NCBI GenBank assembly: GCA_016217695.1
Contig: JACRHE010000107.1
Coordinates: 1 to 36,083 of the forward strand
Direction of reading: 5' to 3'
DNA length: 36,083 nucleotides
Source: Nitrospirota bacterium
GTDB lineage: Bacteria > Nitrospirota > Thermodesulfovibrionia > Thermodesulfovibrionales > UBA6898
The position numbers were made by a program, and so were the translations under genes. This document shows, one piece after another, positions 10,483-11,329 of this stretch. Numbering within the stretch: position 1 is the stretch's first letter; each line of letters starts with the position of its first letter. Under the pieces are notes generated by a model. It was not told the origin of the DNA and did no database searches. It was given only the letters and a program-made list of their open reading frames with translations.

Positions 10483-10821
10483 TTATTCGCTTCGGGGCGT
10501 GTGATGTCTCATATTCTTATTCACCAGTTCAAGGAGGATAATCGTCCTCTCCATCTCAATGTGCTCTTCCTCCCTGACAAGCGCATAGAAATCACATATT
10601 GCGCATCCCTTCATCTTCTGCTCAAAGGTTCCCTGCACCTCTCCGCCGCACATGGTTCCGACTATGACCCAGCAGGCCCTGCCTGCGTTGTCTCCACCAT
10701 GAATGCCATCGAACCTTATATCCGTTGAAGCAGGGCATACGCCCGTGATATATGCATTCGTTCCTCCCAATTCCCGGCCGCAGAGCATAAATTCCCAGCA
10801 GTTTCTTTTATTTTTTTTCAT
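10483..10821 (-). CDS. Small cysteine-rich 'two-CW' domain protein (copy 1)
   Basis: NCWEF..CGRE..GVCPA....GGxNAGRACW...G.MC.G..QG......C..CDFY; clear paralogue of the ORF at 26199-26504. Confidence 0.85.
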   Translation of the reverse strand: MKKNKRNCWEFMLCGRELGGTNAYITGVCPASTDIRFDGIHGGDNAGRACWVIVGTMCGGEVQGTFEQKMKGCAICDFYALVREEEHIEMERTIILLELVNKNMRHHTPRSE

Positions 10822-10832
10822 AAGGTATCGCC

Positions 10833-11120
10833 TCAGATAAACTTCAGGCCCGCCCTGTAAGAGTCGTCAGTTTTTTGTGACCACTTCACCATTGCGACAT
10901 GAAGCTTCCCTTTTCTGTGTTCGTCGTCCCATTCCAGGATATAGCCGGCGTCCAGCGGAAATTCCGTCTTTAAACCCAGCCCGGACCTGCTGACATCTAA
11001 AATCTCTCCGCAGGACCGCATCCGCTTGAACTCGGACGACTGCATAAAGAGGATGGTAAAGCATATTGAACCGGAATACTTTATCCTTTCATGCATCCTT
11101 TTTTCACTGCTTGCCTCCAT
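10833..11120 (-). CDS. PilZ domain protein (putative cyclic-dinucleotide effector)
   Basis: RMHER (RxxxR) followed by DVSRSG (DxSxxG), the two PilZ ligand motifs; SD aggaggtc just upstream of ATG. Confidence 0.85.
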   Translation of the reverse strand: MEASSEKRMHERIKYSGSICFTILFMQSSEFKRMRSCGEILDVSRSGLGLKTEFPLDAGYILEWDDEHRKGKLHVAMVKWSQKTDDSYRAGLKFI

Positions 11121-11148: not shown

Positions 11149-11181
11149 AAAAAAAAAGCCCATACCATCTAATGGCTGGGC
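11149..11181 (-). terminator. Intrinsic terminator between riboswitch aptamer and PilZ gene (expression platform)
   Basis: Minus-strand GCCCAGCCATTAGATGGTATGGGC hairpin followed by a 9-T run. Confidence 0.85.
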
Positions 11182-11195
11182 GTCTTTTCCTTATA

Positions 11196-11285
11196 ATTAC
11201 TTCGGCAACCCCGCTGTCCAGCTTTTCCCTCTGGACCGGTAGCTTTGCGCCCTACCCTTACAGATAGTTTGCTATTATCGGTAAT
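11196..11285 (-). ncRNA. GEMM-I family cyclic-dinucleotide riboswitch aptamer (A20 variant; candidate 3',3'-cGAMP sensor)
   Basis: Minus strand ATTACCGATAATA-GCAAAC-TATCTGTAAGGGTAG-GGCGCAAAGC-TACCGGTCCAG..CTGGACAGCGGGGTTGCCGAAGTAAT: conserved GCAAAC, GNRA (GUAA) loop hairpin, CGCAAAGC, AGCGGGGUUGCCG, and closing P1 ATTAC/GTAAT. Confidence 0.9.
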
Positions 11286-11299
11286 GTTTTATATGCTGG

Positions 11300-11329
11300 A
11301 CTATACTAAGAACTGCCCTGGCTTGTCAA
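11300..11329 (-). promoter_or_regulatory. Sigma-70-type promoter of the riboswitch/PilZ transcript
   Basis: Minus strand TTGACA - 18 nt - TATAGT; predicted start falls a few nt before the aptamer P1 strand. Confidence 0.8.

Follow-up and report, generated by a model that had tools for sequence, protein, structure and literature searches.

An A20 GEMM-I riboswitch preceding a small PilZ gene in a member of the Nitrospirota: a candidate sensor of c-di-GMP, 3',3'-cGAMP or both

Riboswitch annotation often infers the ligand from one base. For GEMM-I aptamers, position 20 has been described as a selectivity factor and not a hard filter for c-di-GMP versus cGAMP, point mutations in lower P2 are stated in general terms to alter this selectivity, and the position-20 equivalent G-to-A change in the Clostridioides difficile Cd1 aptamer (G11A) does not abolish c-di-GMP binding (PMC9262584). 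The engineered Vc2 G20A mutant (4YB1) is reported to bind cGAMP. For the Geobacter GEMM-Ib 3',3'-cGAMP riboswitches, the contact list of the crystallised RNA 4YAZ names A14, C15, G40 and A41, and pilM has a U15-G38 pair in lower P2; both agree with a form of lower P2 that carries C21-G46 and U22.

The window, by which we mean the whole 36,083-nt stretch analysed here, had been annotated initially as carrying a GEMM-I aptamer with A at position 20 on its minus strand, and both parts of this reading were confirmed. Searching Rfam with cmscan returned RF01051 over the complete model (1-87) with an E-value of 7.1e-11 for the whole window and a score well above the gathering score of 35 bits (Table 1), the sole gathering-level Rfam match in the 36 kb, while the RF01051 search gave no match in 14 control genomes. 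Our position numbers derive from an alignment of the window with the Vc2 sequence and agree with the published 3IRW contact list; in the cmscan alignment, posterior probability is maximal in the columns around position 20, and the A (complement of T11273) lies in column 20. An alignment shift placing it elsewhere was ruled out by cmscan and by the Vc2 and clade alignments. The 3IRW contacts are G14, C15, A16, C17, A18, G19, G21, C46, A47, A48, A49 and G50 (PMC7288161), and on the minus strand of the window the Vc2-numbered bases are A20 (11273, T on the plus strand), G21 (11272), C46 (11247), A47 (11246) and C92 (11205). Judged by sequence, the element is a genuine cyclic-dinucleotide riboswitch ahead of a small PilZ gene, and its RNA belongs to an already known family. 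The same genome has four GEMM-I elements in total, and the other three carry G20.

Table 1 Features of the riboswitch locus in the window.
Feature	Coordinates	Strand	Evidence
Promoter-like TTGACA-18 nt-TATAGT, 11/12 consensus matches	11300..11329	-	consensus scan
P1 5' strand ATTAC, paired with GTAAT	11281..11285	-	direct sequence reading
GEMM-I aptamer (c-di-GMP-I, RF01051)	11201..11283	-	cmscan, 65.7 bits
P1 3' strand GTAAT, paired with ATTAC	11196..11200	-	direct sequence reading
Intrinsic terminator GCCCAGCCATTAGATGGTATGGGC then nine T	11149..11181	-	sequence reading and folding
95-aa PilZ-domain-like protein, first gene of the regulated unit	10833..11120	-	Pfam PF07238, E 7.1e-4
112-aa two-CW domain protein, second gene	10483..10821	-	NCBIfam NF045718, 108 bits

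With c-di-GMP-I (RF01051; Vc2, Cd1) the window element shares the whole aptamer, the P2/P3 core (in the window, CUAUCU-GUAA-GGGUAG for P2 and GGUCCAG/CUGGAC for P3), A47, C92, G21-C46 and a terminator platform, but it has A for G at position 20, and its P3 lacks the CUAA...UAUG receptor of the RF01051 consensus, which appears as deletions in the cmscan alignment. With the Geobacter GEMM-Ib riboswitch (4YAZ; pilM) it shares A20, U19, the J1/2 segment (CGAUAAUA) and a short receptor-less P3, and the Geobacteraceae-like J1/2 and P3 could favour cGAMP. The cGAMP-type lower P2 of the Geobacteraceae, however, is C21-G46 with U22-G/A45, whereas a check of the window for C21-G46 and U22 found G21-C46 and C22-G45 instead, the pairs that Vc2 has. 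Vc2 G20A combines A20 with G21-C46 exactly as the window does; that RNA is an engineered point mutant, whereas the window switch is natural and differs from it in P3, and it may be seen as a naturally occurring counterpart of Vc2 G20A.

The sigma-70-like promoter site precedes the aptamer by about 15 nt and was the only strong one among three sites in the consensus scan (1.2 expected by chance), and a G+C-rich terminator hairpin follows the aptamer; a simple terminator scan, whose stem rules disallow an internal loop, listed none at this place. The first gene is preceded by an AGGAGG ribosome-binding site, and its product scores 20.3 bits with PF07238, slightly under the cut-off of 22.5. Promoter, terminator, ribosome-binding site and the order of the PilZ and two-CW genes together identify the element as a riboswitch in the 5' leader of a small PilZ transcription unit. 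In 14 further genomes of the order the PilZ orthologue is likewise directly preceded by a GEMM-I, and in one relative (G013, locus L052) an A20 GEMM-I lies immediately ahead of the two-CW gene. On the other side of the riboswitch, directly upstream, is a 450-aa open frame (window:11568-12920, minus strand) with a weak NAD kinase match only, and further on (window:13075-14169, minus strand) an MglA-like small GTPase (Arf/small_GTP match) adjoins a Roadblock/MglB-like protein, possibly a polarity module near the PilZ unit.

Folding of the growing transcript gave the aptamer up to 112 nt, a transient antiterminator at 116-132 nt, in which P2 and the following GGGCG pair with CGCCC and AGAUGGU in what later becomes the terminator, and the terminator itself once the transcript reached 136 nt. 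When ligand is absent, P2 and the segment behind it (AACUAUCU, GGGCG) would base-pair with the terminator hairpin at its 5' arm and loop, and when ligand is present, P2/P3 and P1 would be locked, the terminator would form and PilZ transcription would stop. Because the predicted antiterminator competes with the aptamer, the model points to an OFF switch, a direction that we put forward tentatively since folding energies ignore ligand and tertiary contacts. A pilM-like ON platform as in Geobacter, with overlapping P1 and terminator, was rejected, as in the window the terminator and the P1 3' strand share no nucleotides. The expression platform is not conserved, because the terminator is missing in five relatives (G007, G009, G013, G017 and G023), where the PilZ start codon follows 5-8 nt past the aptamer; the platform has therefore changed its type at one locus, with a terminator in the window and others and none in some relatives. 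The PilZ orthologues L042, L054, L093, L094 and L092 are of the GCCGAAGUAAUUAUAUG type and have neither a terminator nor an obvious Shine-Dalgarno site. At another locus (L030), the loop region of the terminator, CCUUACAG, could pair without any mismatch with CUGUAAGG, a P2 segment of the aptamer at that locus, which suggests an antiterminator like that predicted for the window.

The Hypr-type GGDEF that a cGAMP reading had implied elsewhere in the genome was found, as far as its sequence tells. The assembly (3.04 Mb, 221 contigs, 87% complete) encodes 15 GGDEF proteins, whose signature residue is Asp in 13, Asn in one with a degenerate motif and Ser in one, so that both kinds of synthase, canonical GGDEFs and one Hypr-type GGDEF, are encoded. 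The Ser-type protein (G000:C140:9892-11052, outside the window) is a 387-aa GAF-GGDEF protein with GHLAGS ... GGDEY; among PDB entries it matches 6d9m best, the Hypr domain of G. metallireducens GacA (E 1.5e-29 versus 2.6e-22 for the next). Its Ser aligns to Ser348 of 6d9m, and the 304 position is Asp. According to PMC6456294, Ser or Thr at the signature position is found only together with GGDE[F/Y], and the products are mainly cGAMP where residue 304 is not Arg, Asp being absent among the residues that the passage names. The protein follows the Hypr sequence rule, with Ser for the signature Asp and GGDE[F/Y], and is likely a cGAMP-making enzyme. It shares with GacA the signature Ser, GGDE[F/Y] and a non-Arg residue at 304, but this residue is Tyr in GmGacA and Asp here, and a second, GacA-like family carries an additional N-terminal region that this protein lacks. 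Thirteen further genomes of the order contain orthologues of the protein (56-64% identity), with Ser in 12 of them; one orthologue (L067, G020) has Gly at the signature position and keeps GGDEY. The second Ser-type family (L085:1102-2502; orthologues L201-L217) has 466 aa with an N-terminal extension before GAF-GGDEF, and in L085 its gene is flanked by one secA-like gene and one for an MglA-like GTPase. No member of this family turned up in the genome that contains the window, at 87% completeness. A CD-NTase as alternative cGAMP source was set aside after a search with one family model gave no SMODS match in the genome.

The comparative data address how far A20 can be taken as the mark of a cGAMP sensor. 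In the switch that precedes the PilZ orthologue, position 20 is A in five genomes (G000, G003, G007, G009 and G013) and G in six (G017, G023, G019, G026, G016 and G002) plus four genomes of another family, and the PilZ protein tree calls for three A/G changes (2-3 in bootstrap trees). This alternation among close relatives does not support A20 as diagnostic of cGAMP. All nine A20 genomes compared had an orthologue of the Hypr-type enzyme, which at first seemed strong evidence, but we rejected this co-occurrence as proof of cGAMP: a search with the second family found Ser-type GGDEFs nearly family-wide and also in G20-bearing relatives, so the test is without power. As the second Ser-type family likewise extends nearly throughout both families, G20-bearing relatives included, the presence of Hypr enzymes does not explain which switches have A.

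Lower P2 gives a similar picture. Among 133 GEMM-I elements of the clade, 56 are G20/G21-C46, 55 are G20/C21-G46 and 21 are A20/G21-C46, with one not assignable to such a class and none combining A20 with C21-G46. In five Geobacteraceae-type genomes, by comparison, A20-C21-U22 occurs with G46 in 36 rows (about 27 distinct) and A20-G21/C46 in 12 rows (10 distinct), so that the C21-G46 signature, the form that fits the cGAMP RNAs studied by crystallography and NMR, is carried by about 27 of 37 distinct A20 switches there versus 0 of 21 in the window's clade. A20/G21 switches numbered at least 119 in a scan of 85,488 species genomes, the matches listed coming from Firmicutes, Deltaproteobacteria, Omnitrophota, Elusimicrobia, Chloroflexi and others, and Firmicutes switches usually carry the window string CGATAATAGCAAAC. 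Among the most Hypr-like GGDEFs of eight genomes with such switches (seven Firmicutes and one Omnitrophota; best three or four GGDEFs per genome), Ser was found at 0 of 30 loci (Asp 29, Asn 1). On these comparisons, A20 by itself is not diagnostic and does not name the ligand. What survives of the proposed cGAMP sensor is that A20 is real and a Hypr-type GGDEF is present; against it, A20/G21-C46 is widespread and the cGAMP-type lower P2 is absent.

Given that other marks of cGAMP switches are absent and that position 20 flips between A and G among relatives, the signal may be c-di-GMP, cGAMP or both. Sensing of both appears the likeliest single reading, with a preference for c-di-GMP second and selectivity for cGAMP third, because A20 permits cGAMP and does not forbid c-di-GMP and both messengers are plausible in the cell. 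C92 would pair with one ligand guanine, and A20 would contact the second ligand base, accepting either adenine (3',3'-cGAMP) or guanine (c-di-GMP); the RNA would bind both ligands, most likely with no strong preference for either, and the usual signal may well be c-di-GMP. The full account, in which an A20/G21-C46 GEMM-I controls the PilZ/two-CW unit by dual c-di-GMP/cGAMP sensing and switches it OFF via the antiterminator, is one that we consider evenly poised between right and wrong.

That the element is an ordinary c-di-GMP switch with A20 as a tolerated, nearly neutral variant is somewhat unlikely. The roughly three flips at a locus whose PilZ product comes from a c-di-GMP effector family, the commonness of A20/G21-C46 in Firmicutes that have canonical GGDEFs (those inspected) and the retained c-di-GMP binding of Cd1 G11A all argue for it, but cGAMP is bound by Vc2 G20A as well as by natural A20 RNAs, and the genome encodes a Hypr-type enzyme, which makes at least a partial response to cGAMP likely. 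A switch selective for cGAMP, GEMM-Ib in function and supplied by the genome's Hypr-type GGDEF, is less probable still: A20, the Ser, GGDEY and non-Arg 304 of the GAF-GGDEF enzyme with GmGacA as its best PDB match, the orthologues of this enzyme across the order and the secreted-looking proteins that follow other A20 switches of the clade, as they do Geobacter cGAMP switches, fit it, but the lower-P2 signature is missing in the window and in every other clade A20 switch, the identical A20 type occurs in Firmicutes in which none of the inspected GGDEFs is of Ser type, and orthologous PilZ switches carry G20 in genomes that also have Hypr-type enzymes. We are equally doubtful of a broader scenario in which the lineage uses 3',3'-cGAMP via two Hypr-type GGDEF families and the PilZ switch swapped its ligand repeatedly by a single A/G change without the lower-P2 alteration of the Geobacter switches; if true, this would be a natural, repeated c-di-GMP/cGAMP swap at one orthologous locus.

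In a literature search that was not exhaustive, we found no report that combines, for Nitrospirota, A20 switches with two families of Hypr-type GGDEFs and with a polymorphism of position 20 at a single orthologous locus. An A20 switch and a Hypr-type enzyme do co-occur in this lineage, and the comparative data indicate that A20 alone is insufficient to assign the ligand; the A/G series of orthologous PilZ switches offers a ready natural set for measuring what base 20 and lower P2 contribute to selectivity.

Membership in the sister family c-di-GMP-I-GGC (RF03167) was considered and rejected, as the window-only scan gave 57.5 bits, under the gathering score of 59, and the window has A47 and not G47. 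The short P3 is common to both, whereas RF03167 has G20 and G47 (consensus CGCGAA) and the window A20 and A47. Several clade GEMM-I elements do score above the RF03167 threshold. About 40% of the lineage's GEMM-I elements form a subtype in which G20 goes with an inverted lower P2 pair, C21-G46 (GCCAAAC ... CGGAAAGC), found at about 55 clade loci (e.g., L035 and L166) and, in the same genome as the window, at L004:1500-1582 on the minus strand; L004 and L035, the two examined, lie above the RF03167 threshold yet keep A47.
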